Shown here: positions 2,477 through 29,146 of the stretch, piece by piece
How the letters are laid out: the number at the start of each line of letters is the position of its first letter
Numbering within the stretch: position 1 is the first letter of the stretch
IMG/VR virus record: IMGVR_UViG_3300025671_010533
Coordinates: 1 to 52,898 of that record
DNA from: a virus
Direction: 5' to 3' (one strand)
Length of the DNA: 52,898 bases
Made by a program: the position numbers and the translations under genes
Notes under the pieces: generated by a model
The model's database searches: none
What the model was told of the DNA's origin: nothing
The model's input: the letters and a program-made list of their open reading frames with translations, nothing else

Positions 2477-2501
2477 TATAGTTCCTCAAGTAAGACGTAA
2501 T

Positions 2502-2756: not shown

Positions 2757-2772
2757 TAAAATTAAATTTTTG

Positions 2773-2782
2773 AATATTTATT
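2773..2782 (+). promoter_or_regulatory. AATATTTATT motif before the tape measure
   Basis: The motif ends 3 bases before the tape-measure ATG. If it is a -10/-7 element, transcription would begin at or very near the start codon, giving a leaderless mRNA. A translation-initiation role cannot be excluded. Confidence 0.4.
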
Positions 2783-2785
2783 AAC

Positions 2786-5698: not shown

Positions 5699-5703
5699 TT
5701 TTT

Positions 5704-5714
5704 AATATTTATAA
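5704..5714 (+). promoter_or_regulatory. AATATTTATAA motif, putative late promoter
   Basis: The motif lies 9 bp before the next ATG (5724) and 4 bp after the tape-measure stop. It is an exact copy of the motif found before the tube and giant-fibre genes. Confidence 0.45.
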
Positions 5715-5723
5715 TCAAAAACT

Positions 5724-5948
5724 ATGGCATTATTAGACAAATACAACCAAAACACTTCTACATTATCGGGTCCTAAATCTCCCAAAACTCCTGTAGGAGC
5801 AACTGCTGAATCTAAATTACATGATCAATATTCTTTAAATGGTAAACCAAATCAAAAGAATAAACCATCACCTTCAATTTTAGATTTAAATGGAGTTACC
5901 CCAAGTAATAATTATAAAGATAACGCACCTGAAGGAGCCTCATTTTAA
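5724..5948 (+). CDS. Small Pro/Asn/Lys-rich virion-region protein, function unknown
   Basis: I do not recognise this 74-residue protein. It is polar and low in hydrophobic residues, with many P, N, K and S, and probably largely disordered. It begins 'MALLDKYNQNTSTLSGPKSP' and includes 'PSPSILDLNG'. It stands between the tape measure and the tube-initiator-like gene and is separated from the latter by only 3 bases, so the two are probably co-translated. A small linker or assembly factor of the tail is possible but not shown by sequence. Confidence 0.6.
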   Translation: MALLDKYNQNTSTLSGPKSPKTPVGATAESKLHDQYSLNGKPNQKNKPSPSILDLNGVTPSNNYKDNAPEGASF

Positions 5949-5951
5949 TAA

Positions 5952-7805: not shown

Positions 7806-8101
7806 ACCGTTACCGTAACATTCCTGTTTTTAAAACTCCTAAAGGTAGAAGATATTATGCTAATGTAAAATATCCTGATATTCCTTATAGAGATAGTGAC
7901 ATTTATGTTATAGCCCAAAAAGGAGATAGATTTGATCTACTTGCGCATCAATACTATAAGGATTCTACTTTATGGTGGATAATCCCTTCAGCAAACCCAA
8001 GATTTAAACCAAATAGTTTATACCCTACTTTAGGACATCAAATAAGAATTCCAACCGATATAGCAAGTATTATAACAGATTTTAAAAAATTAAATAAATA
8101 A
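7802..8101 (+). CDS. gp53: LysM-like baseplate wedge protein (gp53-like)
   Basis: This 99-residue protein contains a LysM-like core: 'DIYVIAQKGDRFDLLAHQYY', then 'DSTLWWIIPSANP', then 'GHQIRIP'. In contractile tails such proteins (T4 gp53 and relatives) sit in the inner baseplate and contact wedge and hub components. It is shorter than T4 gp53 (about 200 residues) and lacks the flanking extensions. The gene starts inside the last codons of the previous gene and ends 3 bases before the hub gene, so all three probably form one translational unit. The LysM-like pattern is visible; the gp53 equivalence is inferred. Confidence 0.6.
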   Translation: MNRYRNIPVFKTPKGRRYYANVKYPDIPYRDSDIYVIAQKGDRFDLLAHQYYKDSTLWWIIPSANPRFKPNSLYPTLGHQIRIPTDIASIITDFKKLNK

Positions 8102-8104
8102 GTT

Positions 8105-11582: not shown

Positions 11583-14500
11583 ATGGCACAAGAATTTTTA
11601 GCAGATAGGGATTTAGGGGCATTTTGCATACCTTATAAAGTAGCAGGCAACTCTATTATCCCCCCTACAGGCCATTTAAGCTTTTATAACAAATTAGACG
11701 TTCGTTATGTAACAAGAGTCGACATTCATAAAAACGACTTTAATAACAACAATATATTAAGGTATTTAACGGGAAGTAATAAAGGAAATCTAACGATTTC
11801 ATCCAAAAATTTTCCAACTTCATACGCAGTTTTTTCTTATACAGAAATAACTTCTAATTCAAATTATGTAACCTTTACTTTAGATACAGGTGCTGTAGCC
11901 TCATCTGCAAATTTGCCTTTTACAACAGGAGAAGAAGTTTGTATTAAGTTAGATTATAATGATGGTGAGGGGGGTACTGGGGGAGTTGCTGGCACTAACG
12001 GCACCTCGGGTACTTCTGGGATAGGAGGAGTAACTACGGGAGGAGATGACATTGAAGTAACTGGAGCAGGCACCGAAAGTGATCCTTATGTAATTAATTA
12101 TACTGGTAGTTCCTCATCTGGCACTTCAGGCACTTCTGGCACTTCTGGCACTTCTGGCACTTCGGGTACTTCAGGCACTTCAGGCACTTCAGGCACTTCA
12201 GGTACTAGTGGTTCATCAGGCACTTCAGGTTCATCAGGTACTTCGGGTTCTTCAGGCACAAGTGGTTCAAGTGGCACTTCAGGTTCTTCGGGTACCAGTG
12301 GCACTTCAGGTACTAGTGGTTCTTCAGGTACTTCAGGTATAGATGGTTCTTCAGGTACTAGTGGCTCTTCAGGCACTTCAGGTATAGATGGTTCTTCAGG
12401 TACTAGTGGTACTACAGGCACTTCAGGCACTTCAGGCACTTCAGGTGAAACTGGTCCTACAGGTCCTTTAGGTCCTGAAGGTTCATCTGGTACTAGTGGT
12501 TCATCAGGTATTTCTGGCACTTCTGGCACTTCTGGTACTTCGGGTGCTGATGGAGATACTTACTCAAATTGTAGTACCCAAAATTTATCAACCCCTACCC
12601 CAGGCACCCAAATCACTATTACAATAGCAACTGGGTTAGCTTATACTCCGGGTCAAAGTGTAATTCTAGCCCAACAATCTACTCCTAGTAATTATATTGA
12701 AGGTACAGTAAACAATTATACTTCTGGAACAGGATCTATAACAATTGATGTAACTGCTGTAGGGGGTAGTTTTAGTGGACCTACAACATGGTGTATTAAC
12801 CTAGCAGGTGCTACAGGACAAGCAGGATCCTCTGGTACTTCAGGTACTACGGGTACTTCAGGAACCTCAGGTATAGATGGTTCTTCAGGCACTGCGGGTA
12901 CATCCGGATCATCTGGTCTTACAGGTCTAACAGGCACTTCAGGTTCATCCGGCACTTCAGGCTCATCAGGCACTTCAGGTTCATCTGGTACTAGTGGCTC
13001 TTCCGGCACTTCAGGTTCATCAGGTACTTCAGGTTCATCAGGCACTTCAGGCACTTCAGGCACTTCAGGTTCATCAGGCACTTCAGGTATAGATGGCTCT
13101 TCAGGTACTTCGGGTGAAGATGGCTCTTCAGGTACTAGTGGCTCTTCAGGTACTAACGGTTCTTCAGGTACTAGTGGTTTTTCGGGTACTTCAGGTACTA
13201 ACGGTTCTTCAGGTACTAGTGGTACTACAGGTACTTCAGGCACTTCAGGTGAAACTGGTCCTACAGGTCCTTTAGGTCCTGAAGGTTCATCTGGTACTAG
13301 TGGTACTTCAGGTACCTCAGGAGGTATAGGTCCTATAGGTCCCGAAGGTTCCTCAGGTACTTCAGGTTCTTCTGGTACTTCAGGTTCATCAGGTGTTTCA
13401 GGTTCATCAGGTACTTCAGGCGTAGATGGTTCATCAGGCACTTCAGGTGAAACTGGTCCTATAGGTCCTATAGGCCCTATAGGTCCTACAGGTCCTTCAG
13501 GTGATAATGGTTCATCAGGTACTTCAGGTTCATCAGGTACTTCAGGTTCATCAGGCACGTCAGGTATTTCAGGTTCTTCTGGTACTTCAGGCATAGACGG
13601 TTCTTCAGGCACTTCAGGTGGTACTGGTCCTATAGGACCTATAGGTCCTGAAGGTTCTTCAGGTACTAGTGGCTCTTCAGGTACTAGTGGTTCATCAGGT
13701 CTTACAGGTCTAACAGGTACTTCTGGTTCATCAGGTACTTCTGGTTCATCAGGTACTTCAGGTTCTTCAGGTACTTCAGGTACTTCAGGTTCATCAGGTT
13801 CTTCAGGCACTTCAGGATCTTCAGGCCTTTCAGGTTTAACAGGCACTTCAGGATCTTCTGGCACTTCGGGTTCATCTGGTACTTCAGGCTCATCAGGTAC
13901 CTCAGGTTCTTCAGGTACTTCAGGTTCATCTGGTACTAGTGGTTCATCTGGTACTTCAGGATCTTCTGGCACTTCGGGTTCATCTGGTACTTCAGGTTCA
14001 TCAGGTACTAGTGGTTCTTCAGGTACTAGTGGTTCTTCAGGTACTAGTGGTTCATCTGGTACTTCAGGCTTTTCAGGTACTAGTGGTTCTTCAGGTACTA
14101 GTGGTTCTTCAGGTACTAGTGGTTCATCTGGTACTTCAGGCTCATCAGGTACTAGTGGTTCTTCAGGTACTAGTGGTTCTTCAGGTACTAGTGGTTCATC
14201 TGGTACTTCAGGTTCATCAGGTACTAGTGGTTCTTCAGGTACTAGTGGTTCTTCAGGTACTAGTGGTTCATCTGGCACTTCAGGCTCATCAGGTACTAGT
14301 GGTTCTTCAGGTACTAGTGGTTCTTCAGGTACTAGTGGTTCATCTGGTACTTCAGGCTCTTCAGGTACTAGTGGTTCTTCAGGTACTAGTGGTTCTTCAG
14401 GCACTAGTGGTTCATCTGGTACTTCAGGCTCATCAGGTACTAGTGGCTCCTCAGGCACTTCAGGTTCTTCTGGTACTTCTGGTTCATCAGGTACTTCTGG

Positions 14501-17500
14501 TTCATCAGGCACTTCAGGTTCTTCTGGTACTAGTGGCTCCTCAGGCACTTCAGGTACTTCAGGTGAGACAGGTCCTTCAGGCTCCCCAGGTGAAGAAGGT
14601 TCATCGGGTACTTCAGGTTCATCAGGTCTTTCAGGTTTAACAGGTACTAGTGGCTCTTCAGGTACTTCAGGTTCATCAGGTACTTCAGGATCATCAGGTA
14701 CTTCAGGTACTTCAGGTACTTCAGGTACTTCAGGTGCAGATGGTTCTTCAGGCACTTCAGGAGCAAGTGGAGATATCTATGCTAATTGTACTCCACAAAC
14801 TATTACTTCCCCAGCAACGGGTACTTTATTTCTTACTATAGGTACTGGCTTAGCTTATACTGCAGGTCAAAGTGTAATATTATCTATTAGTGCTACCCAA
14901 TATATAGAAGGAATAATATCTTTTTATAATTCAAATAGTGGAAATGTAGCTATAACTGTTACATCATCTAATGGTACTTTTGGAGGTTCAAATCCATGGT
15001 GTATTAACTTAGCAGGTGCTACAGGTGCTTCTGGATCTTCAGGTACTAGTGGTACTTCAGGTTCGTCAGGCACTTCTGGCATAGATGGTTCTTCGGGTAC
15101 ATCAGGTTCTTCAGGCACTTCAGGTACTTCAGGTACTTCAGGCACCTCAGGTACTTCAGGTGAGACAGGTCCTTCAGGCCCCCCAGGTGAAGAAGGTTCA
15201 TCGGGTACTTCAGGTTCATCAGGTCTTTCAGGTTTAACAGGTACTAGTGGCTCTTCAGGTACTTCAGGTTCATCAGGTACTAGTGGTTCATCTGGTACTT
15301 CGGGCTCATCAGGCACTAGTGGTTCTTCAGGTACCAGTGGTTCATCAGGTACTTCAGGATCTTCAGGTACTAGTGGTTCATCAGGTCTTACAGGCTTGAC
15401 AGGTACATCAGGTTCATCTGGTACTTCAGGTTCATCAGGTACTAGTGGTTCATCAGGTACTTCAGGATTATCAGGTTCCTCAGGCACTTCAGGATCATCT
15501 GGCACTTCAGGTTCATCAGGTCTTACAGGTTTAACGGGTACTTCAGGTTCATCTGGTACTTCAGGTACTTCTGGTGCCGAATATTATAGATGTGTTCAAT
15601 CTAATACTCTTCCTTCTCCTCCTACTATAGGACAAACTTACCAACAATTCATTGGAACTAGTTTAGCGTGGTCAACGGGAATGTATGTAGTACTAGAAGC
15701 TAATAATGGAGCTAGTATTATAATAGGACAAGTAGTAACGTATAGTTCTGTTACAGGATTCATAGAATTTGAAGTTCTTTCTTATCAAGGAACTTGGAGT
15801 AATATTACTCATTGGTGCTACAATATATCAGGTGCTCCTGGAGAAGATGGATCATCCGGTACTTCAGGCTCATCAGGTACTTCAGGTTCATCGGGCACTT
15901 CAGGTTCATCAGGTACTTCAGGTACTTCAGGTGATACAGGCCCTACAGGTCTTCCAGGTTTAGATGGCTCTTCAGGTACTAGTGGTTCATCAGGTACTTC
16001 AGGCTCTTCAGGTTCTTCAGGATCTTCAGGTACTTCAGGCTCTTCAGGTACTTCTGGGGTATATTCTTATTGTGGGTTTACTGGAATTGGTGTCCCACCA
16101 CCTCCATCTCAATTTTCTATAACTATAGGAACTTATTTATCGTTTACTGCTGGTCAAAGTGTAATTATATATCAACAAAATAATGCTACCAAGTATATTT
16201 TAGGAACGGTAAATAGCTATACTCCAAGCACTGGAGTTATGGTGGTTGATTATATATCCCATAATGGTAATTGGAGTGCGGGTCAAACTTGGTGTATCAA
16301 TTTATCGGGTCAACCCGGGGAAGATGGTTCATCAGGCACCTCAGGTTCATCAGGCACTTCAGGTTCTTCAGGCACTTCAGGTTCATCAGGTACTAGTGGT
16401 TCTTCAGGCACTTCAGGTATAGATGGTTCTTCAGGTACTTCAGGATCTTCAGGTACTAGTGGCTCATCAGGTACTTCAGGTTCTTCAGGCACTTCAGGAT
16501 CTTCAGGTACTTCAGGATCATCAGGTACTTCAGGTTCTTCAGGTACTTCAGGTTCATCAGGTACCTCAGGTTCTTCTGGTACTTCTGGTTCATCAGGTAC
16601 TTCTGGTTCATCAGGCACTTCAGGTTCTTCAGGTACCAGTGGTTCATCCGGTCTTACAGGTTTAACAGGTACTTCAGGTTCTTCAGGTACTTCAGGATCA
16701 TCAGGTGAATCCGGTTCATCAGGTACTTCGGGATCATCAGGTACTAGTGGTATTTCAGGATCATCAGGCACTTCAGGTTCATCAGGCACTTCAGGTTCAT
16801 CAGGCACCTCGGGTTCTTCAGGTCTTACAGGTTTAACGGGTACTAGCGGTTCTTCAGGTACTAGTGGTTCTTCAGGCACTTCAGGTTCATCTGGTACTAG
16901 TGGAAGCCCAGGTGAACCCGGTTTAGATGGTTCTTCAGGTACTAGTGGTTCTTCAGGTACTTCAGGTTCATCAGGTACTTCAGGATCATCAGGTACTTCA
17001 GGTACTTCAGGTTCATCAGGCACCTCGGGTTCTTCAGGTCTTACAGGTTTAACAGGTACTAGCGGCTCTTCAGGTACTAGCGGTTCTTCAGGCACTTCAG
17101 GTTCATCTGGTACTAGTGGTTCTTCAGGTACTTCAGGTTCATCAGGCACTTCAGGTTCATCAGGTACCTCGGGTTCTTCAGGTCTTACAGGTTTAACGGG
17201 TACTAGCGGTTCTTCAGGTACTAGTGGTTCTTCAGGCACTTCAGGTTCATCTGGTACTTCAGGATCATCAGGAACTAGTGGTTCTTCAGGCACCTCAGGT
17301 TCATCAGGCACTTCAGGTTCTTCAGGCACTTCAGGATCATCAGGCACTTCAGGCTCATCAGGCACTTCAGGTTCATCCGGTACTAGTGGTTCATCAGGTA
17401 CTTCAGGCTCTTCAGGTACTTCAGGATCATCAGGCACTTCAGGTATAGATGGTGACATTTATGCTAATTGTACTGACCAAACTATTGCTTCTTCCCCAAC

Positions 17501-20255
17501 AACCATTTCTATTCAAATAGGAGCAGGTTTAGCATATACAGCTGGACAAAATGTTATATTTGCTATTGATGCTAATAATTTTATAGAAGGAACTGTAAAT
17601 AGTTATGATCCCAATAATGGGAATATAACTATAAATGTTACTAGTTTTACAGGGAGTTGGAGTGGTACAAATGAATGGTGTATTAACTTAGCAGGCGCCC
17701 CAGGTGCATCAGGTTCATCAGGTACTTCAGGTACTAGTGGCTCATCAGGTACTTCAGGATCATCAGGTACTTCAGGTTCTTCAGGTACTTCAGGTATAGA
17801 TGGTTCTTCAGGCACTTCAGGTTCATCAGGCACTTCAGGTTCATCCGGTACTAGTGGTTCATCTGGTACTTCAGGATCTTCTGGCACTTCGGGTTCATCT
17901 GGTACTTCAGGTTCATCAGGTACTTCGGGTTCTTCAGGTACTTCAGGTATAGACGGCTCTTCAGGCACCTCAGGTTCTTCAGGTACTTCAGGATCTTCAG
18001 GTACTAGTGGTTCATCAGGTACTTCAGGTATAGATGGCTCATCAGGCACTTCAGGGTCTTCAGGCACTTCAGGTTCATCTGGTACTAGTGGTATTTCAGG
18101 TTCTTCAGGTACTAGTGGCTCATCAGGCACTTCAGGTTCTTCAGGCACTTCAGGATCTTCAGGCACTTCAGGATCATCAGGTACTTCAGGATCTTCAGGT
18201 ACTTCAGGTTCATCAGGCACTTCGGGATCATCAGGCACCTCAGGATCATCAGGTACTTCAGGTTCATCAGGTACTTCAGGATCATCAGGTACTTCAGGTA
18301 CTTCAGGTTCATCAGGTACCTCGGGTTCTTCAGGTCTTACAGGTTTAACAGGCACTAGCGGTTCCTCAGGTACTTCAGGTATAGATGGTTCTTCAGGCAC
18401 TTCAGGATCATCAGGCACTTCAGGTTCATCAGGCACTTCAGGTTCATCAGGTACCTCGGGTTCTTCAGGTCTTACAGGTTTAACGGGTACTAGCGGTTCT
18501 TCAGGTACTAGTGGTTCTTCAGGCACTTCAGGTTCATCAGGTACTAGTGGTTCTTCAGGCACTTCAGGTTCATCAGGTACTAGTGGTTCTTCAGGCACTT
18601 CAGGTATAGATGGTTCTTCAGGCACTTCAGGTACTTCTGGTTCTTCAGGCACTTCAGGTATAGATGGTTCTTCAGGTACTAGCGGTTCTTCAGGTACTAG
18701 TGGTTCTTCAGGCACTTCAGGTTCATCAGGTACTAGTGGTTCTTCAGGCACTTCAGGTATAGATGGTTCTTCAGGTACTTCAGGATCTTCAGGTACTTCT
18801 GGTTCTTCAGGTACTTCAGGTATAGATGGCTCATCAGGCACTTCAGGGTCTTCAGGCACCTCAGGTTCATCTGGCACTAGTGGTATTTCAGGTTCTTCAG
18901 GTACTAGTGGCTCATCAGGCACTTCAGGTTCTTCAGGCACTTCAGGATCTTCAGGTACTTCAGGATCATCAGGTACTTCAGGTTCTTCAGGTACTTCAGG
19001 TATAGATGGCTCATCAGGCACTTCAGGGTCTTCAGGCACCTCAGGTTCATCTGGTACTAGTGGTATTTCAGGTTCTTCAGGTACTAGTGGCTCATCAGGC
19101 ACTTCAGGTATAGATGGCTCATCAGGCACTTCAGGGTCTTCAGGCACCTCAGGTTCATCTGGTACTAGTGGTACTTCTGGTTCTTCAGGCACTAGCGGTT
19201 CTTCAGGCACTTCAGGTTCATCAGGTCTTTCAGGTACACCAAGTACTAGTGGTTCATCTGGTACTTCAGGTTCATCAGGTACTAATGGTTCTTCAGGTAC
19301 TTCAGGTTCATCAGGTACTTCGGGTACAAACGGTTCTTCAGGAACTTCAGGCTCATCAGGTCTTTCAGGTACACCTAGCACTAGTGGCTCGTCAGGTACT
19401 AGTGGTTTATCAGGTACTAATGGCACCTCAGGTACTTCAGGTGTTTCCATCACAGGACCTACAGGTCCTCAAGGTATTAATGGTATTAGAGGAGGGGTTG
19501 AATATAAATCAGGATCAGGTCCAGGAAAGGTTGCATGGAGTAGTACAATAAATGCCCTCACTATATCACGTTATGATGATCAGGGTAATGATGTTTATGA
19601 TTGGATTAATAGCTGGGATGATGTTAATAATGCACAAAATAAAGGTCAGGTTACAATATATTCCGATGATGGTAATGAACTTCTTATAGGAACAATTAAT
19701 ACTTTAGTTTTTATTCCAAACCAATTTTTAATTACATTAGAATATCCTCTTGTTGACCAATATTCTCCTACTACTAATGAAACAGTTTTAGTTTCATTTT
19801 CTCCTAGAGGAGCAACAGGTCCCGGATTTATTGAGACATGGTCGGGTGCTCAAACTGTATTAGCAAATGATTCGGATACTTTTAACGTAGGTGTTAACTT
19901 AGGAACAAATGATGTAGTAGAATTTGATGGAAGAATAATCCTTAAAGGAAATAATGGAATTTCTCCATTAGAATCAGTAGGCATTACTATAAAATATACC
20001 GGAACACTCATAGCCCTTCCTGGTGGACAACATTATCTTTCAGATTTAACAATTTTGGATACTAGTGGAACTATTACTACTAATACTGCAGGTGTTATTT
20101 CTACCTCAGATGTAAATTTGTATAAAGTATGGTTATCATATATCGATTCACTTTCTACTCTTCCAAACGTTTTAACTCTTGAAGTTAATAATGAATTTGC
20201 ATATAGTTTACAATATAAATATTTTACAACAATACGCTATTTTAATACTTTATAA
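11583..20255 (+). CDS. Giant collagen-like tail fibre protein with five inserted Cys domains
   Basis: The protein has 2,890 residues. Residues 1-170 are non-repetitive. Residues ~175-2,620 are almost unbroken Gly-X-Y triplets, mostly GTS and GSS, with short collagen-like stretches such as [16 protein letters not shown] and markers GIDGSS and GLTGLTG. Five related ~85-residue domains interrupt the repeats at about 12,550-12,830, 14,770-15,025, 15,577-15,840, 16,058-16,318 and 17,452-17,705. Each has an early Cys, a 'G[QM]xV' strand and a closing W-C-[IY]-N. The last ~270 residues are a non-repetitive beta-rich tip. Collagen-like triplets form trimeric rods in other phage fibres, so a long trimeric fibre is expected. 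Nearly every X and Y is Ser or Thr, giving a huge set of potential O-glycosylation sites. The ends are clear. Confidence 0.85.
12105..19445 (+). repeat. Coding tandem repeat array (GTS/GSS triplets; 9- and 18-bp units)
   Basis: About 7.3 kb is built from 9-bp units coding for Gly-Thr-Ser or Gly-Ser-Ser, usually paired as an 18-bp GTSGSS unit. Synonymous codons vary (ACT/ACA/ACC, AGT/TCA/TCT/TCC, GGT/GGC/GGA), so protein repetition is stricter than DNA repetition. Five non-repetitive ~250-bp inserts break the array. Codon phase is kept throughout, which shows selection on the protein. Confidence 0.95.
13977..14480 (+). repeat. 72-bp higher-order tandem repeat inside the fibre gene
   Basis: The block starting GGTTCATCTGG recurs at 13977, 14049, 14121, 14193, 14265, 14337 and 14409, exactly 72 bp apart. 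Six units are nearly identical and the seventh diverges after its first third. Each unit encodes 24 residues (eight triplets). The near-identity points to recent unequal exchange or slippage. Confidence 0.9.
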
Positions 20256-20264
20256 TATTTATAA
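20254..20264 (+). promoter_or_regulatory. AATATTTATAA motif overlapping the fibre stop codon
   Basis: The motif overlaps the fibre TAA and ends 2 bases before the ATG at 20267. With standard promoter geometry the transcript would start at about the ATG itself. Confidence 0.4.
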
Positions 20265-20266
20265 AC

Positions 20267-20725
20267 ATGCCAGCATTGAATCAAAATTTTATAATACATG
20301 ATTTAGATTATTTTCAAGTAAGATTTAATATTACTGATGCTGTAAACCCCCTAGATAATTCAACTGCACGTTGTTGGTGGGGAGTAGCTGAAGATAGTAG
20401 TGATGGCTCTTCAGGTACTTATCTTCTTATTGAAAGAAGTAATAATACTTGGACTAATACTGGTGTAGGTGATACTGTTAACTTTGGTAGTACTACACTA
20501 CTTACAATAGAACCTACTTATGTGGATATAATAGTAGGAGTACAAAATATAACAGCTGGTGGTAAAGGTGGTTCTTATAACCTGACTCCTACTTCCTTTC
20601 CTGGTGTATACTACCATGAATGTATATATAGCGGCACCGGTGCCCAAACAAATTCAACAGCAATAGCAACAGGACAAATAACAGTTCTTCAATCACTATT
20701 TACAGAACAAGGATATAGAGCTTAA
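20267..20725 (+). CDS. BppU-like/fibre-associated protein, copy 1
   Basis: This 152-residue beta-rich protein begins 'MPALNQNF', as does the next gene. Both share the layout of small N-terminal domains in phage baseplate upper/fibre proteins: a D-x-x-x-x-F-T/N-x-T-D strand, a 'WWGV' core, a 'GVYYHE' or 'GTYYHE' strand and a closing 'TGQITVLQSLFT' or 'SGFITVENSIFT'. No enzymatic motif is seen. It probably caps or links fibres, or is a small receptor-binding or decoration protein. The relation to BppU is a fold-level impression and not established. Confidence 0.55.
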   Translation: MPALNQNFIIHDLDYFQVRFNITDAVNPLDNSTARCWWGVAEDSSDGSSGTYLLIERSNNTWTNTGVGDTVNFGSTTLLTIEPTYVDIIVGVQNITAGGKGGSYNLTPTSFPGVYYHECIYSGTGAQTNSTAIATGQITVLQSLFTEQGYRA

Positions 20726-20745
20726 GTAAAAAACACAAAAAAACA

Positions 20746-21225
20746 ATGCCCGCACTAAATCAAAATTTTACAAGATTAGAAAGTGATAGTTATGTATTAG
20801 AATTTACTCCTACAGATGGAACAGTTTCACTACTTACATATGCTGGTTGGTGGGGAGTATCCAATACAGATACAGCTGCAGGTTCATTATTATTAGAGGG
20901 GTGGACAAACAATTCAAATGGTTCAATCTCACTTAATGGGTATAATGCTACTGGTGGTTGTCAAAATACCCCATCCCAACCCGCCTTTCCTATCGATGGA
21001 ACAGGTGCTGCTGTTAATGTTAGAATTTTCAACTTCGAAAACAAAATCCGAATTGTAATGGACCAATCAATACAGGATCTTATTACTCCTAATGGAACTT
21101 ATTATCATGAATTAGTATTAATGAAGGTAGCAGCTAATACAGCATATCAATGTATATCTCATGTAGCAGCATCTGGATTTATAACTGTCGAAAATTCTAT
21201 ATTTACTAATAGAACTTATAGATAA
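20746..21225 (+). CDS. BppU-like/fibre-associated protein, copy 2
   Basis: This 159-residue protein is a clear tandem paralog of the preceding gene. The first eight residues are identical, and the WWGV and YYHE strands and the C-terminal 'FITVENSIFTNRTYR' correspond to 'QITVLQSLFTEQGYR' in copy 1. The middle has diverged and includes two extra cysteines (in 'GGCQN' and 'YQCIS'). The A-rich leader (AAAAAACACAAAAAAACA) has no Shine-Dalgarno sequence, as expected for Bacteroidota-type initiation. Divergence in the middle with conserved ends would suit different binding faces on one scaffold. Confidence 0.55.
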   Translation: MPALNQNFTRLESDSYVLEFTPTDGTVSLLTYAGWWGVSNTDTAAGSLLLEGWTNNSNGSISLNGYNATGGCQNTPSQPAFPIDGTGAAVNVRIFNFENKIRIVMDQSIQDLITPNGTYYHELVLMKVAANTAYQCISHVAASGFITVENSIFTNRTYR

Positions 21226-21524
21226 TGTCTTGTGGTCCTTTAAATGGTCTTTTAACAAGTAGTATTAACTCACAGCTTTTAGGGCCTTCTCTAGAAGGAT
21301 TATATAACAATAGTTGGAACCCAAAATTTGCAGGTGTACCCTTAAATTTAAATTTATCATCATCCTATCAAAATGGACTTTTAACTTCAAGTTTACAATG
21401 TTCTAATTTTATATTATACTTTGGAGAAGATAAAACTATTAGTACATATGGTTATAATTTACAAGCAGAACTTTCTTCTTCAATGCCCCTACAATTATGT
21501 CGCCCTCGTTTTACTTTTGAATAA
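21225..21524 (+). CDS. Small virion-region protein, function unknown
   Basis: I do not recognise this 99-residue protein. Its ATG overlaps the stop of the upstream paralog (TAATG), so it is probably translated by re-initiation. It contains an internal repeat-like pair, 'NGLLTSSINSQLLGPSL' near the start and 'NGLLTSSLQCSNFILYF' in the middle. There is no signal peptide or obvious membrane segment. Position between fibre proteins suggests a small structural part of the fibre network. Confidence 0.5.
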   Translation: MSCGPLNGLLTSSINSQLLGPSLEGLYNNSWNPKFAGVPLNLNLSSSYQNGLLTSSLQCSNFILYFGEDKTISTYGYNLQAELSSSMPLQLCRPRFTFE

Positions 21525-21562
21525 ATTTTAATTTTATAATTAAAAAATAGTTACAATTAAAA

Positions 21563-21573
21563 CATATTTATAA
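21563..21573 (+). promoter_or_regulatory. CATATTTATAA motif, putative late promoter
   Basis: The motif ends 2 bases before the ATG of the S74 fibre gene, in the same geometry as the copy at 20254. It lies in a 51-bp gap that holds no other visible element. Confidence 0.4.
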
Positions 21574-21575
21574 CC

Positions 21576-22874
21576 ATGCCTCATAATGATCAAATAAATT
21601 ATAGTGTTAAAGTTAGGTTAGATCCCAACATCGACCCAGATGCAAGTGTAGTATGGAATAGTACTAATAAAAAATTTGAATTAGGAACGGGTACGGGTAT
21701 TACTATTATTAACCCCGATGATCATAATATGATCACAGCTAATGGAACCACAGACTCTATAACTGGTGAAGATTATTTTAGATATGTTGGTGGGGGTTCT
21801 AGTGGAACTAGTGTAGGAAGAGTAGCTATAGGACAATATGACAATGCCACTCCCTACACTATGCTTGATATAGGAAGAAATATTACAAACAACACCACTA
21901 GTGGCTTCCCAGAAGCAATATTTTATTCTACTAATACAAGTTTTAATTTTGGTTTAAGACTAGGTCTTCACCAATTATCGTGGGATCAAGGTAGTGGTAC
22001 CTATAAGTCACTAGAGGCTACAATAGGAACAGCAGATAAAGCAGGATCCCCTGATACAGATATATATGTTGGAAAATATTCTAGTTTAGGTGTGGGTACT
22101 TTTACTCCTATAGCAGCATTTGGTATTCCTCGTGAAAGTTTTGGAATTGGAAAATCAGAAAAAGCATTAATTGCTTATAGTGAAACTCCTACTTTAACTC
22201 CAATTCAAGCTACTCAACTTAATTCAACTTTTTATGTGGGGGAGGATGTTGATGCTAGTAGTGAAATTACTTCTGCTAAAGATTCTGTAGCTGAAATTAC
22301 TAATTTTAACACTTCTGGAAATCAATACAATACTGCCTTAATAATTAATTTAGCAGCAACAAGTGGTCAAAACCAACAAGATTGGGTAGGAAGTTCTGGA
22401 TCCCCAGACGATAACTGTAGATTTATTTCATTTAGACGTAGAGCAACTATTAATGAACATAACAACTCATATCCTTCATTCATAGAATGTGGTAAAATAG
22501 TTTTAAATGGAGCAGAAGCTGCTGCACCTAGTGGAGAAATATTTCCAGGTGTTCTTTATCTTAATACATCTGATAAACGATTTAAAAATAATATTAAGCC
22601 CCTTTCAGTAGGATTAAATGAACTTTTAAAAATCCAACCTAGTGAATATAATTGGAACCAATCCCCTATTGTAAGTAAAGGATTTATTGCTCAAGATTTG
22701 TATAAGATTTATCCTGATGCTGTATATAAACCTAAAGATGAAACGGATTTATCTGATCCTTGGTCTGTAGATTATGGTAAATTAACTCCTTTACTTGTAA
22801 AAGCAATTCAAGATCAACAAAAGATTATTGAGGGGCTAAAAGAAAGAATTATTAAACTTGAAAACTCTATTTAA
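21576..22874 (+). CDS. Tail fibre/spike with C-terminal S74 intramolecular chaperone
   Basis: The protein has 432 residues. The C-terminal ~100 residues are an S74 (endosialidase-type) chaperone. 'SDKRFKNNIKPL' starts at residue 332, followed by 'LLKIQPSEYNW', 'KGFIAQDLYKIYPDAV' and a terminal helix 'LVKAIQDQQKIIEGLKERII'. In this family the chaperone trimerises the fibre and then cuts itself off N-terminal to the catalytic Ser (here S332). The mature fibre would therefore be ~331 residues with a ~101-residue released chaperone. The N-terminal part is beta-rich with G-rich turns and probably carries the attachment and receptor-binding regions. It is separated by only 3 bases from the next fibre gene. 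Confidence 0.8.
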   Translation: MPHNDQINYSVKVRLDPNIDPDASVVWNSTNKKFELGTGTGITIINPDDHNMITANGTTDSITGEDYFRYVGGGSSGTSVGRVAIGQYDNATPYTMLDIGRNITNNTTSGFPEAIFYSTNTSFNFGLRLGLHQLSWDQGSGTYKSLEATIGTADKAGSPDTDIYVGKYSSLGVGTFTPIAAFGIPRESFGIGKSEKALIAYSETPTLTPIQATQLNSTFYVGEDVDASSEITSAKDSVAEITNFNTSGNQYNTALIINLAATSGQNQQDWVGSSGSPDDNCRFISFRRRATINEHNNSYPSFIECGKIVLNGAEAAAPSGEIFPGVLYLNTSDKRFKNNIKPLSVGLNELLKIQPSEYNWNQSPIVSKGFIAQDLYKIYPDAVYKPKDETDLSDPWSVDYGKLTPLLVKAIQDQQKIIEGLKERIIKLENSI

Positions 22875-22877
22875 CAA

Positions 22878-25412
22878 ATGCCTATTTCTTATATTTACGG
22901 TGATGGAATTTCTATACAGAGTTCTTCATTAAATTCTAGTGGATCTATAGCATCTTCTTATACTCAATTCAGAATTGAAGCTACAGGATCTAAAGGAAAT
23001 AAATTTCAAATCCTTATCCCCTCCCAATCAACTGGTGAAAATGAAGATACTATAGCTTTATTTATTACAAGTTCTGGTAAAGATGCTAATGTAGGAATAG
23101 GTACTAAAAGTCCTAAATCCTTATTTGAAATAAGATCTTCCCAATCATCTTCAAAATCTACCCCCGATTTTATATTAGCAACTCCTAGCAGTTCTCTTAT
23201 TACAGGAGGTGAATCAGCAAGACTTTCTTTTGTCATAGAAGATACTATTCTTTCAGGCAGTGAATTCGCAATTTCAGGAAGCACAGGAGCTATATATTCT
23301 AGGGTTCTTTCAGACCCTTCAACTACAGGTTACCAATATGGGTCTTTAGTATTTGAAGTAGATGGACCTAATGATATTACTAAAGATACTAAAGGCTTAG
23401 AAATAGGATATGGTTTAAATCCCTTTTTACCAACCACCATTGCTTCAGTATTTACAGGAAGTATTGTTATAGGAGCAGGAGATGTCAACCCTATACCAGG
23501 TATGTATGTACGTAATTATCTAGGTAACGATGTAGTATATATAGGCCAAGATATTTTTTCACCATTAGATCTTGATGCTGGACAATTAATACTTTATGAA
23601 AATAATTCTCCAAAAATTAATCTCCAAACAGACCCAGGTGAAGATAGTTATATTAATACTACAGGTAATTTTGGAATAGGAACATCTTCTCCTAACGCAA
23701 AACTTGAAGTAGTAGGAAACACAATACTCTCAGGTTCATTAGCAGTTTCTCAATCATTTACAGCTTCAGGTTTATATTATCCTGATACTGATGGTACTGA
23801 TGGTCAATTTTTAGCTACAGATGGAGCAGGTAACTTAAGTTTTCAAACAATAGAAGATGTTTATGTTACCGTAAAAAATGTTTCTGGGGGTACTTTATAT
23901 AAAGGTACTCCGGTACATGCTACTTCCTCAGTTGCTGCGGGTAATGCTACTCCTGTTATAGCAGCTTCTGCTTCTAATGCTCTTACAATGCCTGCTACTT
24001 TTGTTTTAAATGAACAAATAGATGATGAAGCAGAAGGCCAAGCATTACTTTCAGGATTTATCCAAGGAGTAAATACTTCATTATTTGAAGTAGGTGAAGT
24101 AGTTTATGTAGGAGAAAATGGAGGATTTACAAATATTAAACCTACAGGTTCTAATAATTTAATCCAAAACTTAGGTATTGTTACTAAAATTCACCCATCC
24201 AATGGTAGTGGGTGGGTATATGGTTCTGGAAGATCTAATGATGTACCCAACTTACCTACAGGAAAAATATGGGTTGGTAGTGATACTTACTCAGTAACTT
24301 CATCTGTAATTTCATTAGATGAAGCTAATAAGTATGTATCTGGCTCAGAAAGTGCTAAATTCCAATTAGGTACTTACGCTTTTGGATATAATACTTTCCC
24401 AGGGTTTGGATTTGACATAACAGGCTCAGGTATAATAGTTAGTAGTTCTTTACCTTCTTTACATTATCCTATGGTAAAAATAGGAGAAACAGAATTACTA
24501 GATTTAACTACATCTACTGCTTTAGCAGATCATACTTTTACTATCCATAATGTAGATAATTTCCAAGTTACTTCTGGGAGTGAACCCACAGATGTTTCTA
24601 CTAATAAATTATTTGAACATATTGGGGATACTTTTAAAGTTTATAGTAAAGGAAATTCAACCCCTGTATTTACAGCATCAAGTAGTTCTATTGCTTTACA
24701 AGGAAAAAATGTTAGTATTTTACCTTCATCAGGAGTTCCTTATATAAAAACTCCTAATGCATCTTCCTCTCCCCAATATGTGCCTGTATTTGATGCTTTA
24801 CCTGACAACATATCAGGAAGAGAATTAAAATATATAACATCTTCTACTTTTATAGGAGGAGGATTAAGTACCCCTTATAGTTTAGGTACTTTTGGTGGGA
24901 AATATCAGTGGGGTACTACTGATGGAGGTAAAACTGTGGTTCATGGTTTTGTTAATGGACCTACTGCAGGGGCCACACAAAACTCAGATCATTGGATAGA
25001 TAGTGCTGTCTACACCCCTGATTCTACTACTTATAGTATGAGTACCTATAAAATGCAATATGCTGCTTTATACTCCCCAGTAGGAGGAATCCCCCATATT
25101 AAGGGTTGGGGAAGAACTTCAGATTCAGATTTTACTACAAATCATTCCATGTCAATTTCTCTTTGGTCCCTAGATACAGAACCTGCAAACCTTGCTGCGG
25201 GTAGTCAAACTTTAACTCTTAGAGCTCAATCTGAATTTTTAACATTTAATGCTGGTACCATTAACTACCTAGGAAACGGATGGGAAGCTTCAGGAAGTAG
25301 TGTTCGCCCTGCAGGTACTTTTTATTTTGTTACTTGGGATTTAGGTGGTCCTAATCCTTCTTCAACTGCTGATTTATCAGCAAACTTTACAATTTGGGTT
25401 GAACCCTCATAA
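22878..25412 (+). CDS. Large tail fibre protein
   Basis: This 844-residue beta-structured, Ser/Gly-rich protein contains two copies of the fibre-type motif GIGT-x-S-P ('NVGIGTKSPKSLFEI' near residue 74 and 'NFGIGTSSPNAKLEV' near 264), which commonly introduces triple-beta-helix shaft segments. 'GQFLATDGAGNLSFQ' near residue 314 is another common shaft motif. The C-terminal ~200 residues look like a separate globular receptor-binding domain. There is no S74 chaperone. The product may be trimerised by another protein, possibly the small ORF that follows. Confidence 0.7.
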   Translation: MPISYIYGDGISIQSSSLNSSGSIASSYTQFRIEATGSKGNKFQILIPSQSTGENEDTIALFITSSGKDANVGIGTKSPKSLFEIRSSQSSSKSTPDFILATPSSSLITGGESARLSFVIEDTILSGSEFAISGSTGAIYSRVLSDPSTTGYQYGSLVFEVDGPNDITKDTKGLEIGYGLNPFLPTTIASVFTGSIVIGAGDVNPIPGMYVRNYLGNDVVYIGQDIFSPLDLDAGQLILYENNSPKINLQTDPGEDSYINTTGNFGIGTSSPNAKLEVVGNTILSGSLAVSQSFTASGLYYPDTDGTDGQFLATDGAGNLSFQTIEDVYVTVKNVSGGTLYKGTPVHATSSVAAGNATPVIAASASNALTMPATFVLNEQIDDEAEGQALLSGFIQGVNTSLFEVGEVVYVGENGGFTNIKPTGSNNLIQNLGIVTKIHPSNGSGWVYGSGRSNDVPNLPTGKIWVGSDTYSVTSSVISLDEANKYVSGSESAKFQLGTYAFGYNTFPGFGFDITGSGIIVSSSLPSLHYPMVKIGETELLDLTTSTALADHTFTIHNVDNFQVTSGSEPTDVSTNKLFEHIGDTFKVYSKGNSTPVFTASSSSIALQGKNVSILPSSGVPYIKTPNASSSPQYVPVFDALPDNISGRELKYITSSTFIGGGLSTPYSLGTFGGKYQWGTTDGGKTVVHGFVNGPTAGATQNSDHWIDSAVYTPDSTTYSMSTYKMQYAALYSPVGGIPHIKGWGRTSDSDFTTNHSMSISLWSLDTEPANLAAGSQTLTLRAQSEFLTFNAGTINYLGNGWEASGSSVRPAGTFYFVTWDLGGPNPSSTADLSANFTIWVEPS

Positions 25413-25422
25413 TTAATATAAA

Positions 25423-25557
25423 ATGCATACCCCTACTCATACCCCTTTTCCTAAATTATCCACTACTTCTAGTTTAGCTGACGTAGTAAGTGAATACAAT
25501 AATTTAGCAGAATTTTTAAACCAACAAAACTTCCCAAATCCTGATTTAGAAAAGTAA
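25423..25557 (+). CDS. Small 44-residue ORF after the fibre gene
   Basis: ATG at 25423 to TAA at 25555-25557 gives 44 residues beginning MHTPTHTPFPK and ending FPNPDLEK. A central amphipathic helix (~residues 18-36) is flanked by Pro-rich ends. It starts 10 bp after the fibre stop and fills the gap before the glycosyltransferase promoter. I do not recognise it. A small assembly or chaperone factor for the fibre is possible from position alone. Confidence 0.45.
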   Translation: MHTPTHTPFPKLSTTSSLADVVSEYNNLAEFLNQQNFPNPDLEK

Positions 25558-25563
25558 AATAAC

Positions 25564-25594
25564 TTGTTTTTCTAAATTTAATTTGTTATATTAA
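25564..25594 (+). promoter_or_regulatory. Host-type promoter (TTG - 20 bp - TATATTAA)
   Basis: TTG at 25564-25566 and TATATTAA at 25587-25594 fit the Bacteroidota primary-sigma pattern TTG-N19-21-TAnnTTTG. The first T of the -7 box is 13 bases before the glycosyltransferase ATG, so the mRNA may be leaderless. Confidence 0.55.
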
Positions 25595-25599
25595 TTGTT

Positions 25600-27897
25600 A
25601 TGTCTACACCTAAATTAAAGGTCCATTGTTCTTATATAGGAACGACAGGATACAACCATCATTCTAGAGATTTTTTTAGAAAATTATCTGAAAAAATTGA
25701 TTTAAAAATTCGCAATTTTACTATAGGTAAAAATTGGAATTGGCCTAATAATGAACCCCATAATGGGGAATCTTATTTAAATAGTTTAGATAAACACCTT
25801 TTAACAGAACAAACTTTATGGGTTAATGAAACTGATAGAGAAGAATTTTCTATATATTCTAAACATGTAAATGAATTTGAACATAATATTGATTTAGTTT
25901 TAAATGAAACTAACCACTATTATTTTTACGATTCATATGACAAGCCTAAAATTGCTTATAATGTTTGGGAATCTACACTTCAACCCCCTCAGTTTTTTGA
26001 TAAATTATTAGAATATGATCAAATATGGGTGCCTTCACAATGGCAAGCAGACTGTACTATTAATCAAGGAGCAGATCCCTATAAAGTAAAAGTTGTACCT
26101 GAAGGTGTAGATGTTAACACTTTTTATCCTGAAGACCCTAAAACAGTTCTAGATTATGTAGATGGTAGATTTAAATTTATAGTATTTGGAAGATGGGATT
26201 ATAGAAAATCTACTAAGGAAATCATAGAAACATTCCTTAAAGAATTTGACCCTTCAGAACCTGTAGACTTAATTGTTTCTATTGACAATCCCTTTTCAGG
26301 AGATGGACATGAAACTACTGAAAAACGTTTAGAACATTATGGTTTTACTGATAAACGTATTAAAATAAAGCATTTCCCTTCCAGAGAAGATTATATTACT
26401 TATTTAAAAAATGGTCATGTATTTGTATCTTGTGCTCGAAGTGAAGGATGGAATTTACCTTTAATTGAAGCAATGGCTTGTGGTACCCCTTCAATTTATT
26501 CTGCTTGTAGTGGGCAAATGGAATTTGCTGAAGGAAAAGGATTACCTGTAAAAATATTAGGTGAAAAACCAGTTATGGATGCTGATTATAACCATTTTAA
26601 CTCTTCAGTAGGTAATTATTATGAACCTGATTTTAAAGATTTGGCTCGTGTAATGAGAGATGCTTATAAAAATTATACAGACCATAAAAAACGAGCTATA
26701 GAGGAAGCTAAATTAATTCATAGAGATTTTAATTGGGATAAAGTAGCAGAAATAGGAATTAATACTTTAAAAAATTTTATGACAAATTTAAAGAATGAAA
26801 TTATTATTAGTTTTGTAGATGGAGCTAGATGTGAAATTAAAGGGCCTTTAGATCAAGATTACCAAGTTAAATTTTATAATGATGTTACTAATGAATTAGT
26901 TTGGGAAGATACTATTAAAAATAATATGTGGACTGCTCCTAATTATAAATCTTTTATAAAATGGAGAATTGAGATTTGGGAAGGTAATAATAAAATTTAT
27001 GAGCATATTTTAGATTTAACAAATAAAAAAGTTTATATTCATTTGGATAGTAAATCTATAGGTGATACTTTAGCTTGGTTCCCCTATGTAGAAGAATTTA
27101 GAAAAAAACATAACTGTAAAGTAATATGTTCTACATTCCATAATGATTGGTTTAAATCTCAATACCCTGAAATCCAATTTGTAGGACCTGGTACATCTGT
27201 AAGTGATTTATATTCATCCTATGGTATAGGGTGGTACTATGATGAAGATATTTATAGAAAATCTAATCATCCTTATGATTTTAAATTTCAACCTCTACAA
27301 AAAACAGCAAGTGATATTTTGGGATTAGAATTTAAAGAACTTATTCCTAAAATTAAAAAATTACCTTCTTCCCCTATAACAGAAAAATATATAACTATTT
27401 CTATTCAATCTACTTGTCAAGCTAAATATTGGAATCACCCAACGGGATGGGAGCAAGTAGTAAAACACCTCCAAAATAAAGGATATAAGGTAGCAGTTGT
27501 AGACCAACATAGAACTTTTGGCACCCAAGGATTTATGAACACCTCTCCCCAATCAGATTACCACTTCCATAATAAATCCCTAGAAGAAGTTATGTCTGTA
27601 ATTAATGGAGCCCAACTTCATATTGGTATAGGATCAGGATTATCCTGGATAGCATGGGCTTTAAAAACCCCTATAATGTTAATCTCTTCATTTTCTAGAC
27701 CTTGGTGTGAATTCCAAACTAATTGTTCTAGAATTTATATAGATTCTCCTACATCAGGGTATTTTAATACCCATAAAATGGATCCTTCAAATTGGAATTG
27801 GTACCCTTTTAAAGAGATAAAATCAATGGAGGATTGGTATGAGATAGAAACTATCACTCCTGATTTGGTAATTCAAGAAATCGATCGTATATTGTAA
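25600..27897 (+). CDS. Two-domain glycosyltransferase: GT4-like + autotransporter O-heptosyltransferase-like
   Basis: The protein has 765 residues. Residues ~1-400 are a GT-B, GT4-like glycosyltransferase. 'VPEGVDVNTFYP' is followed by 'FIVFGRWDYRKS' and by the EX7E motif EGWNLPLIE (E282, E290). Residues ~476-765 resemble bacterial autotransporter heptosyltransferases (TibC/BAHT type). These include 'IHLDSKSIGDTLAWFPYVEE', 'PLQKTASDILGL', 'STCQAKYWNHPTGW' and the diagnostic 'IGIGSGLSWIAWAL' (~675-688). That family adds sugars to Ser/Thr of repetitive surface proteins. The family's iron-binding cysteine region (CxxC...WCP) reads 'SPTSGYFN...NWYPF' here, so the cysteines are lost. A beta-sandwich-like linker joins the halves. 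The nearest obvious substrate is the Ser/Thr-rich giant fibre 5.3 kb upstream. The sugar donor is unknown. Confidence 0.75.
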   Translation: MSTPKLKVHCSYIGTTGYNHHSRDFFRKLSEKIDLKIRNFTIGKNWNWPNNEPHNGESYLNSLDKHLLTEQTLWVNETDREEFSIYSKHVNEFEHNIDLVLNETNHYYFYDSYDKPKIAYNVWESTLQPPQFFDKLLEYDQIWVPSQWQADCTINQGADPYKVKVVPEGVDVNTFYPEDPKTVLDYVDGRFKFIVFGRWDYRKSTKEIIETFLKEFDPSEPVDLIVSIDNPFSGDGHETTEKRLEHYGFTDKRIKIKHFPSREDYITYLKNGHVFVSCARSEGWNLPLIEAMACGTPSIYSACSGQMEFAEGKGLPVKILGEKPVMDADYNHFNSSVGNYYEPDFKDLARVMRDAYKNYTDHKKRAIEEAKLIHRDFNWDKVAEIGINTLKNFMTNLKNEIIISFVDGARCEIKGPLDQDYQVKFYNDVTNELVWEDTIKNNMWTAPNYKSFIKWRIEIWEGNNKIYEHILDLTNKKVYIHLDSKSIGDTLAWFPYVEEFRKKHNCKVICSTFHNDWFKSQYPEIQFVGPGTSVSDLYSSYGIGWYYDEDIYRKSNHPYDFKFQPLQKTASDILGLEFKELIPKIKKLPSSPITEKYITISIQSTCQAKYWNHPTGWEQVVKHLQNKGYKVAVVDQHRTFGTQGFMNTSPQSDYHFHNKSLEEVMSVINGAQLHIGIGSGLSWIAWALKTPIMLISSFSRPWCEFQTNCSRIYIDSPTSGYFNTHKMDPSNWNWYPFKEIKSMEDWYEIETITPDLVIQEIDRIL

Positions 27898-27898: not shown

Positions 27899-29146
27899 GT
27901 GTTTTGGCTTATAGAAAATAAAGAACAATTACAAGAATTTAGGGAAAAGAAGTTCAAGAAAGTATTCATTGAACCTCTTTTTTCTAATGATAACATACAC
28001 CCCCACTTAAGGGGGATAGTAGGATTCTATATTAGAGAAATTAATTATAGAAAAGGATTTATTATTAATATAAACCATAGTGAGGCAACAAGTTGTGAAT
28101 TAGATGAAGTATTAAACCTAATAGGAGAATTTAAAGAAATATTTGTAAGAGATAAGAAAGAATTTTTACACATAATCCCACTTAAGCAGCTTAGTGACAC
28201 CCATTTCATCTCTCCTACAGATATCCCAGACTCATTTCCTTGTCATGATTTTTTCTATAGGAAATACCCCCAAATAGCCAATATAGGTAGCATAATTCCA
28301 ATTGTAAAGCATTATGAACGTTGTGAAACGATATTTCACGCGGTTAAACATGTGTTTACTATGGAGAAACCACCACACTTTGAGTTCTATAATAACAGAG
28401 CTACAAATGTGTTTTATTGGATCGAATCGGAGGGACTTAAAGTAGATCCTAAGTTATTTGAGGAACACTTTGGGGTAGAACGAGATTGGACTTACTCACA
28501 ATTTAATTTAAAAACTACTACTACGAGACCTTCAAACTCATTTGGGGGAATTAATTATGCTGCTTTAGATAAAAAATCGGGTTGTAGAGAAGCGTTTATT
28601 CCCGATAATGATTTCCTAATGGAGATTGATATTAGCGCTTATCATCCTACTTTGGCTGCTCAACTTGTAGATTATGAGTTTGAGCATGAGGACATACACC
28701 AAGCATTTGCTGATATGTACGGAGTAGATTATAAGAAAGCTAAGGAGCTTACGTTCAAACAATTATATGGAGGAGTATTTAAGGAGTATAAGAATTTAGA
28801 ATTCTTTAAACGAGTAGAAAAATATATAGATGATATAAGTAGTAAGGAAGAACACGTTTGTAAGTCTGGATATGTTTTTAAAACAGATATGAAAAAACAG
28901 AAGTTGTTTAATTACATACTTCAAAATACGGAAACGTATTATAATGTACTTATTCTAGAGAAGATAATCCGTATACTTAAAAACAGTAAAACTAGGATTA
29001 TACACTATACTTATGATTCGTTTTTGTTAGATGTAGATAAAGGTGAACGAGATGTAGTTGAATTAATAATAGATATTTTTAAGGGATATAACTTTAATAC
29101 TAAAGTAGAGGTGGGACATAACTATGACGCTTTAGAGAAAGTGTAA
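27899..29146 (+). CDS. Compact family A (Pol I-type) DNA polymerase-like protein
   Basis: This 415-residue protein uses GTG at 27899; the ATG two bases earlier is in a frame that stops after six codons. The C-terminal half has the three palm/finger motifs of family A polymerases. Motif A is EIDISAYHPTLAAQL with D244. Motif B is KAKELTFKQLYGG with K282, F286 and Y290 at family spacing. Motif C is HYTYDSFLLDV. The N-terminal ~170 residues resemble a degraded exonuclease domain ('KVFIEPLFSN', 'GIVGFYI', 'EIFVRDKKEFL') without clear catalytic acids. It is half the size of Pol I. The phage also encodes a family B polymerase, so this may be a repair, primer-processing or accessory polymerase. Activity is not certain. 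Confidence 0.6.
   Translation: MFWLIENKEQLQEFREKKFKKVFIEPLFSNDNIHPHLRGIVGFYIREINYRKGFIININHSEATSCELDEVLNLIGEFKEIFVRDKKEFLHIIPLKQLSDTHFISPTDIPDSFPCHDFFYRKYPQIANIGSIIPIVKHYERCETIFHAVKHVFTMEKPPHFEFYNNRATNVFYWIESEGLKVDPKLFEEHFGVERDWTYSQFNLKTTTTRPSNSFGGINYAALDKKSGCREAFIPDNDFLMEIDISAYHPTLAAQLVDYEFEHEDIHQAFADMYGVDYKKAKELTFKQLYGGVFKEYKNLEFFKRVEKYIDDISSKEEHVCKSGYVFKTDMKKQKLFNYILQNTETYYNVLILEKIIRILKNSKTRIIHYTYDSFLLDVDKGERDVVELIIDIFKGYNFNTKVEVGHNYDALEKV

Follow-up and report, generated by a model that had tools for sequence, protein, structure and literature searches.

A probable phage-encoded O-glycosylation module for a serine/threonine-rich collagen-like tail fibre

The window analysed here is a stretch of viral DNA of 52,898 nucleotides (nt), positions 1 to 52,898 of the IMG/VR record IMGVR_UViG_3300025671_010533. 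It comes from a T4-like phage: a baseplate hub protein is recognised in the window, and the overlapping 74-kb record G001 has matches to the tail sheath, the tail tube, the portal, the terminase and the major head protein. Two plus-strand genes are the subject of this work. The first, just after the baseplate/peptidase region of the T4-like tail module, encodes a very long collagen-like fibre (11583..20255), and the second encodes a fused glycosyltransferase (25600..27897); the parts of both described below lie on the same strand. We propose that together they probably form a phage-encoded O-glycosylation module with the Ser/Thr-rich tail fibre as acceptor. The host is most likely a member of the Bacteroidota, because the nearest isolated relative found by UvsX is Flavobacterium phage immuto (65% identity) and one protein in the window carries a type IX secretion domain (CHU_C).

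The fibre has 2,890 amino acids (aa) and contains 684 Gly-X-Y (GXY) triplets spread over 12 tracts, with a Pfam Collagen (PF01391) score of 845 bits. Ser or Thr occupies 1,184 of the 1,368 X and Y positions (87%; 836 Ser and 348 Thr). Position X holds 308 Thr and 259 Ser, and position Y holds 577 Ser and 40 Thr. Pro is found at only 32 of these positions, and the fibre is thus nearly proline-free. The initial annotation had described a 2,890-residue fibre with Ser/Thr at nearly every X and Y and about a thousand candidate acceptors, which agrees with the exact open reading frame (ORF) and with these counts. The repeats are long and uninterrupted as in other collagen-like proteins, the longest run being 172 triplets, against 7 when the protein was shuffled 200 times. 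The repeat is encoded by a mixture of six Ser and four Thr codons and therefore is not one copied DNA unit. The fibre C-terminus is identical in two further IMG/VR records (L001 and L259), and related fibres of 3,117 aa are found in records G004 and G005. A chance or artefactual origin of the repeat is ruled out by the shuffles, the mixed codons and the presence of the same fibre in other records.

The collagen tracts are flanked and interrupted by other domains. The non-collagenous N-terminal domain (aa 1-133; 11583..11981) shows 61% identity to the fibre N-terminus in L249. Five Cys-containing domains of about 80 aa sit between collagen tracts, at aa 327-408 (12561..12806), aa 1066-1144 (14778..15014), aa 1334-1416 (15582..15830), aa 1495-1575 (16065..16307) and aa 1960-2037 (17460..17693). 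The non-collagenous C-terminal domain spans aa 2637-2890 (19491..20252); its predicted structure is unusable, with a predicted local distance difference test score (pLDDT) of 34. Because only 32 of the 1,368 X and Y positions are Pro, it is doubtful that a trimeric triple helix of the predicted collagen-like fibre would be stable without modification.

The glycosyltransferase gene encodes 765 aa, and its two halves were recognised by domain matches and in an AlphaFold2 model (pLDDT 83.7). The N-terminal half (aa 1-395; 25600..26784) is of the glycosyltransferase family 4 (GT4) type: Glycos_transf_1 matches residues 189-310 (4e-12), PHROG 2170 (glycosyltransferase) matches at 5e-29, and the nearest folds are MshA and HepE. 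The C-terminal half (aa 398-764; 26791..27891) matches TIGR04414 (hepto_Aah_TibC), the equivalog model of the TibC/Aah O-heptosyltransferases, over residues 398-764 with 263 bits against a curated cut-off of 200 bits. A phmmer comparison of the enzyme with TibC (4rap) gave E = 8e-51. Foldseek comparison of the model with TibC gave a template modeling (TM) score (target) of 0.83-0.85 at 2.4-2.6 A over about 375 columns, and the model contains the N-terminal beta-barrel and GT-B-like catalytic domain of the TibC fold. TibC uses D110 as its catalytic base and binds the phosphate through T226 and K230, adenine through R286 and heptose through W305 (PMC4358343). D110, T226, K230 and W305 are all kept in the window enzyme, as D489 (27064..27066), T605 and K609 (27412..27426) and W683 (27646..27648), respectively, and P300 is replaced by G678. 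To judge by length, a beta-hairpin thumb may be present (28 residues between the equivalents of TibC 254 and 283 vs 29 in TibC, with the F near the tip kept). The two-domain architecture with a GT4-like N-terminal half, proposed earlier from the sequence, is borne out by the exact ORF and the Glycos_transf_1 match; the proposed bacterial autotransporter heptosyltransferase (BAHT, TibC) type of the C-terminal half agrees with the curated hidden Markov model, the active-site residues and the suggested structure comparison with TibC. By score, fold and catalytic residues the C-terminal half belongs to the TIGR04414 family, as a divergent subfamily that lacks R286 and the iron finger.

We examined the association of enzyme and fibre in contigs chosen blind to the enzyme. 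IMG/VR was scanned with DNA patterns for 8 tandem G-[ST]-[ST] or 7 tandem G-P-X codons, and 48 (median 45 kb) and 44 (median 38 kb) of the longer contigs were sampled from the two sets. TIGR04414 was found on 23 of the 48 G-[ST]-[ST] contigs and on none of the 44 G-P-X contigs (Fisher p = 1e-8). The difference remains when the contigs are limited to those of up to 150 kb (19/44 vs 0/43, p = 3e-7) or to those with a GC content below 0.45 (17/42 vs 0/15, p = 0.0025), which rules out GC bias as its sole cause. In the reverse direction, five tandem G-[ST]-[ST] codons were present on 24 of 48 enzyme-bearing contigs, and further enzyme-bearing contigs (for example L096, L126 and L151) have Ser/Thr at X and not always at Y. 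The association is also seen within one phage lineage: among 37 UvsX-related contigs a Collagen (GXY) match was found on 6/10 with the enzyme and 1/27 without it (p = 6e-4). Of the four contigs that have the enzyme and no GXY match, three end near the enzyme gene and one is only 10 kb long. Phage immuto is syntenic with the window phage, with tail order kept and three tail proteins at 27-31% identity; neither a TibC-like enzyme nor a collagen-like fibre was found in the approximately 97 kb of immuto that was read. At least 568 viral stretches encode a TibC-like domain. All phage associations rest on contig fragments, so that absence is weak evidence in both directions; record L259, for example, ends before the enzyme, and truncation at contig edges gives false negatives. 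Three apparent discrepancies were dropped on inspection. L012 and L013, first taken as exceptions, show a Ser/Thr-rich GXY ORF elsewhere in the whole contig, and L409, alone among the stretches selected for G-P-X in having a TibC-like gene, encodes Ser/Thr-rich GXY proteins too.

A similar pairing is found in bacteria. A scan of 201 genomes of Methylobacter's family for TIGR04414 detected 13 full-length genes, 5 canonical (654-663 bits) and 8 divergent (303-327 bits). None of the five canonical genes has a GXY neighbour, and AIDA-like autotransporters of about 2,300 aa adjoin them in all three neighbourhoods read. Seven of the eight divergent genes directly adjoin, in several orientations, a gene for a signal-peptide GTSGTSG protein; the eighth adjoins a homologous protein with a degenerated or frameshifted repeat. 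The neighbour rule thus recovers the known substrate type for the canonical enzymes, and for the divergent enzymes it indicates Ser/Thr-rich GXY proteins. At position 286 the divergent bacterial enzymes have I, M or V, and at position 300 they have G, like most phage enzymes, whereas the canonical enzymes keep R286. Similar enzyme-GTS pairs are present in metagenome-assembled genomes (MAGs) of Polaromonas, a gammaproteobacterium and Arenicellales. In an enzyme tree made by a quick method, with SH-aLRT (Shimodaira-Hasegawa-like approximate likelihood ratio test) support only, the phage enzymes fall together with the pair enzymes of Methylobacter and Polaromonas and separately from TibC and the autotransporter type; the gammaproteobacterial and Arenicellales pair enzymes lie at the base of the other side. 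The genomic pairing of this enzyme family with Ser/Thr-rich GXY proteins is strong in both phages and bacteria. The enzyme-substrate relationship suggested in the initial annotation gains support from the contig sets (23/48 vs 0/44), the UvsX-related lineage (6/10 vs 1/27) and the bacterial pairs (7/8 vs 0/5). The small secreted or lipoprotein-like GTSGTSG proteins paired with divergent TibC-like enzymes are found at loci L512-L515, L517-L519, L542, L047, L056 and L084.

From these data we infer the fibre as substrate, and likewise which sugar is transferred, where it is attached, what the GT4 half does and what the phage gains, as follows. The long collagen-like tail fibre, with hardly any proline, would be modified by an O-glycosyltransferase that the phage itself encodes. 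Most likely the TibC-like half takes ADP-activated heptose, or a closely related sugar, from the host supply and transfers it to Ser and possibly Thr side chains of the GTS/GSS triplets. Transfer would take place in the cytoplasm before or during fibre assembly, and a second sugar probably comes from the GT4 half. A densely glycosylated rod would be hydrated, and the sugars may stabilise its triple helix in place of proline; Thr glycosylation is mentioned as a collagen-stabilising mechanism in PMC3368898, citing Bann 2000. The coat might also serve as a sheath or mask receptor specificity, as suggested in the initial annotation.

A number of observations weigh against this scheme. In TibC, R286 and the four iron-binding Cys are needed for activity, the Cys also for the dodecamer, and in the peptides mapped Ser and not Thr was modified (PMC4358343). 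The window enzyme has V664 (27589..27591) at the R286 position, so the nucleotide donor is not certain. All four Cys are absent from its C-terminal segment (27700..27894), which forms the iron finger in TibC and most phage relatives: the finger is present in 64/67 bacterial-locus domains, 106/108 other phage domains and 0/18 domains of the clade of the window enzyme. Its loss argues against the ring-dodecamer arrangement of TibC, and the oligomer and perhaps the handling of the acceptor must differ in this clade. No HldE-type gene was detected with two HldE domain models in the 74-kb sister record of the window, and the host would thus have to supply the donor. The pairing itself has exceptions. 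The UvsX-related contig G164 encodes a Ser/Thr-rich fibre and a methyltransferase and no TibC-like gene. The 58.7-kb contig L026 has the fused enzyme with visible GXY proteins that are Ser/Thr-poor; L027 has the enzyme and no Ser/Thr-rich GXY within 32 kb; and for many phages with a standalone enzyme none is visible within their contigs. The suggested search for co-occurrence thus had a divided outcome: the pairing does recur in other phages, while some relatives, all of them fragments, have the enzyme with no Ser/Thr-rich repeat fibre in view, which had been named as evidence against the idea.

Among the alternatives, the one that fares best accepts a glycosylated fibre and changes the donor: loss of the adenine-contacting Arg would mark a switch from ADP-heptose to another nucleotide sugar, perhaps not the same one in every phage. 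R286 is kept in 61/67 bacterial-locus domains as compared to 9/108 other phage and 0/18 window-clade domains, and the sugar island of L499 encodes an NTP_transferase close to the fused enzyme. On the other side, T226, K230 and W305 are kept, and genes for an HldE-like kinase and adenylyltransferase directly follow the TibC-like gene in a clade that also lacks R286. In this sister clade of standalone enzymes, 12 of 19 loci (L107, L111, L119, L120, L122, L130, L131, L133, L142, L143, L150 and L160) have two HldE-like genes, recognised by motif, directly downstream and overlapping. In those scanned, the best NCBIfam match of the first gene is HldE domain II (adenylyltransferase) at about 100 bits, which falls short of its cut-off (181.5), and that of the second is HldE domain I (kinase) at 102-122 bits, with a cut-off of 345. 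This gene order supports a putative phage-borne cassette for an ADP-heptose-type donor and hence such a donor for the family, heptose itself not being proven. We regard a changed donor as a minority possibility that deserves to be kept in mind.

It is also conceivable that the collagen tracts are not the main acceptor and that the enzyme glycosylates something else in the virion, for example the neighbouring 844-aa protein, the domains between the collagen tracts or a different fibre. The 844-aa protein (22878..25412, plus strand), part of which is 52% identical to the "putative tail fiber-like protein" of immuto, is nearer to the enzyme than the fibre is and consists of 24% Ser/Thr, making it a possible alternative acceptor. 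In many phages whose enzyme is standalone, the proteins encoded near it are instead large and non-GXY. The occurrence of the enzyme with Ser/Thr-poor GXY proteins (the fused enzyme of L026), or with none in view (L027 and much of the standalone clade), likewise indicates that the enzyme may have other acceptors. Yet in bacteria, away from any phage, the enzyme is paired directly with the short GTSGTSG protein, and the contig association holds specifically for Ser/Thr-rich GXY and is not seen for G-P-X collagens. We therefore consider this explanation unlikely.

Less probable still is that the enzyme modifies the host surface (lipopolysaccharide or capsule, for superinfection exclusion) or the phage DNA, its proximity to the fibre reflecting an accessory-rich tail neighbourhood. 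Phage glycosyltransferases with such roles are known (PMC12619734), related phages carry sugar islands near the tail genes, and the window also encodes 7-deazaguanine-type genes. These genes, however, explain DNA modification without a sugar, the TIGR04414 family is defined by protein O-glycosylation (PMC4358343), and the bacterial GTS pairs and the canonical autotransporter pairs obey the same neighbour logic. A by-product of shared ancestry or habitat, with AT-rich Bacteroidota phages happening to have both genes, is already disfavoured and very improbable: the contig sets do differ in GC (median 0.39 for G-[ST]-[ST] vs 0.49 for G-P-X) and the enzymes with a GXY label cluster together on the tree, but the association persists below a GC of 0.45, inside one phage lineage, across different enzyme architectures and in gammaproteobacterial and betaproteobacterial loci. 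An O-glycosylation module for the collagen-like fibre is thus the reading we prefer. A broader proposal is made more tentatively, and we would not expect all of it to hold: a branch of the TibC type may have switched from autotransporters to Ser/Thr-rich collagen-like proteins, the sugar replacing proline/hydroxyproline as helix stabiliser and giving a glycan-dependent collagen in phage fibres and bacterial surface proteins. Some phages would bring along genes for an ADP-heptose-type donor, and the window clade would have an enzyme remodelled without the iron finger.

Collagen-like repeats with a different composition are found in BclA of the Bacillus exosporium, which are of the Gly-Pro-Thr type. 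BclA resembles the proposed product in being a glycosylated bacterial collagen-like protein (PMC8968730), but its system has different enzymes and belongs to sporulating Firmicutes. TibC and AAH belong to the same curated family as the window enzyme and share with it the fold, the catalytic base and all but one of the four sugar-binding residues; they modify Ser on repetitive surface proteins encoded nearby, as the window enzyme may do too. In contrast, the window enzyme is phage-encoded and fused to a GT4 half, lacks the iron-finger Cys and has V for R286 and G for P300, and its proposed acceptor is a collagen-like fibre instead of a beta-helical autotransporter. Glycans on phage structural proteins are described for mycobacteriophages (Freeman et al. 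2023, as cited in PMC12619734); there they are on the C-termini of capsid and tail-tube proteins, while here a collagen-like fibre and a TibC-type enzyme would be involved, as judged from genomic pairing alone. In Mimivirus, L230 and a separate glucosyltransferase are viral enzymes acting on viral collagen (PMC9546862), an arrangement that the gene content here suggests as well; in that giant virus of amoebae the sugars are hydroxylysine-linked and the enzymes unrelated. The EPclA fibres of E. coli O157 prophages are phage fibres with a GXY tract, but unlike the window fibre they are proline-rich (GPK, GPQ, GPA), and recombinant EPclA was found not to be glycosylated (PMC3368898).

Phage fibres decide host range and virion stability, and their glycosylation has hardly been described. 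The recurrence of the enzyme-fibre pairing in many phages and in bacterial gene pairs points to a widespread, undescribed sugar-coating of collagen-like proteins. A literature search found no paper linking TibC-type enzymes to phages or collagen-like proteins; subscription journals, mostly outside this search, may hold such a report. Should the pairing be real, phages in large number and of diverse kinds would sugar-coat collagen-like fibres by means of one enzyme family, and several bacteria would do likewise with small secreted proteins. It would exemplify a natural switch of substrate among enzymes of an established family, with a simple substrate rule: G-S/T-S/T next to a TibC-like gene that usually has a non-Arg residue at 286. 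It would also be a lead towards proline-free, glycan-stabilised collagen-like materials.

Related loci show further features of such modules. In L498, L499, L500 and L501 a variable sugar island lies between the Ser/Thr-rich GXY fibre and the tail sheath; these islands include FkbM methyltransferases, NTP_transferase, hexapeptide transferase and several glycosyltransferases. A gene for a 2-oxoglutarate and Fe(II)-dependent (2OG-Fe(II)) oxygenase (L500:5949-6533), possibly a hydroxylase for a collagen-like protein, lies between the collagen-like fibres and the fused enzyme. G180 (locus L426) has a 1,017-aa ORF with two tandem TIGR04414-like domains, one strong and one weak. The cultured cyanophage Mel-JY01 of Microcystis (PP395634.1; L039) encodes a GXY ORF and, downstream of it, a related fused enzyme (2-3049 and 4750-8430). 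Its enzyme has about 480 extra residues between the halves and is annotated as methyltransferase FkbM; the Ser/Thr-rich GXY ORF is 1,016 aa long, and most of it is annotated in the record as opposite-strand genes.

Between the fibre and the enzyme, the window also encodes two proteins of about 155 aa (20267-21225) that are diverged duplicates with 31% identity, followed by a tail fibre protein with a C-terminal S74 chaperone domain (21576..22874, plus strand). Directly after the enzyme is a 415-aa ORF (27899-29146) with weak similarity to PHROG 17, phage DNA polymerase (2e-8); it is conserved beside the enzyme in the window clade, and the annotated full family A polymerase of immuto lies elsewhere. 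The CHU_C type IX secretion signal domain is at the C-terminus of the product of 42122-44179 and implies export by a Bacteroidota host. Genes for QueC, PTPS/QueD-like and radical SAM (QueE-like) proteins lie within 39185-42001. To judge from the gene content of immuto, the ORF ahead of them (39185-39967), which has no Pfam hit, may be DpdA-like, and 45961-46656 may encode FolE; together these predicted genes point to 7-deazaguanine DNA modification. The family B DNA polymerase (48710-51578) is apparently split over three ORFs (48710-50392, 50389-50652 and 50652-51578).

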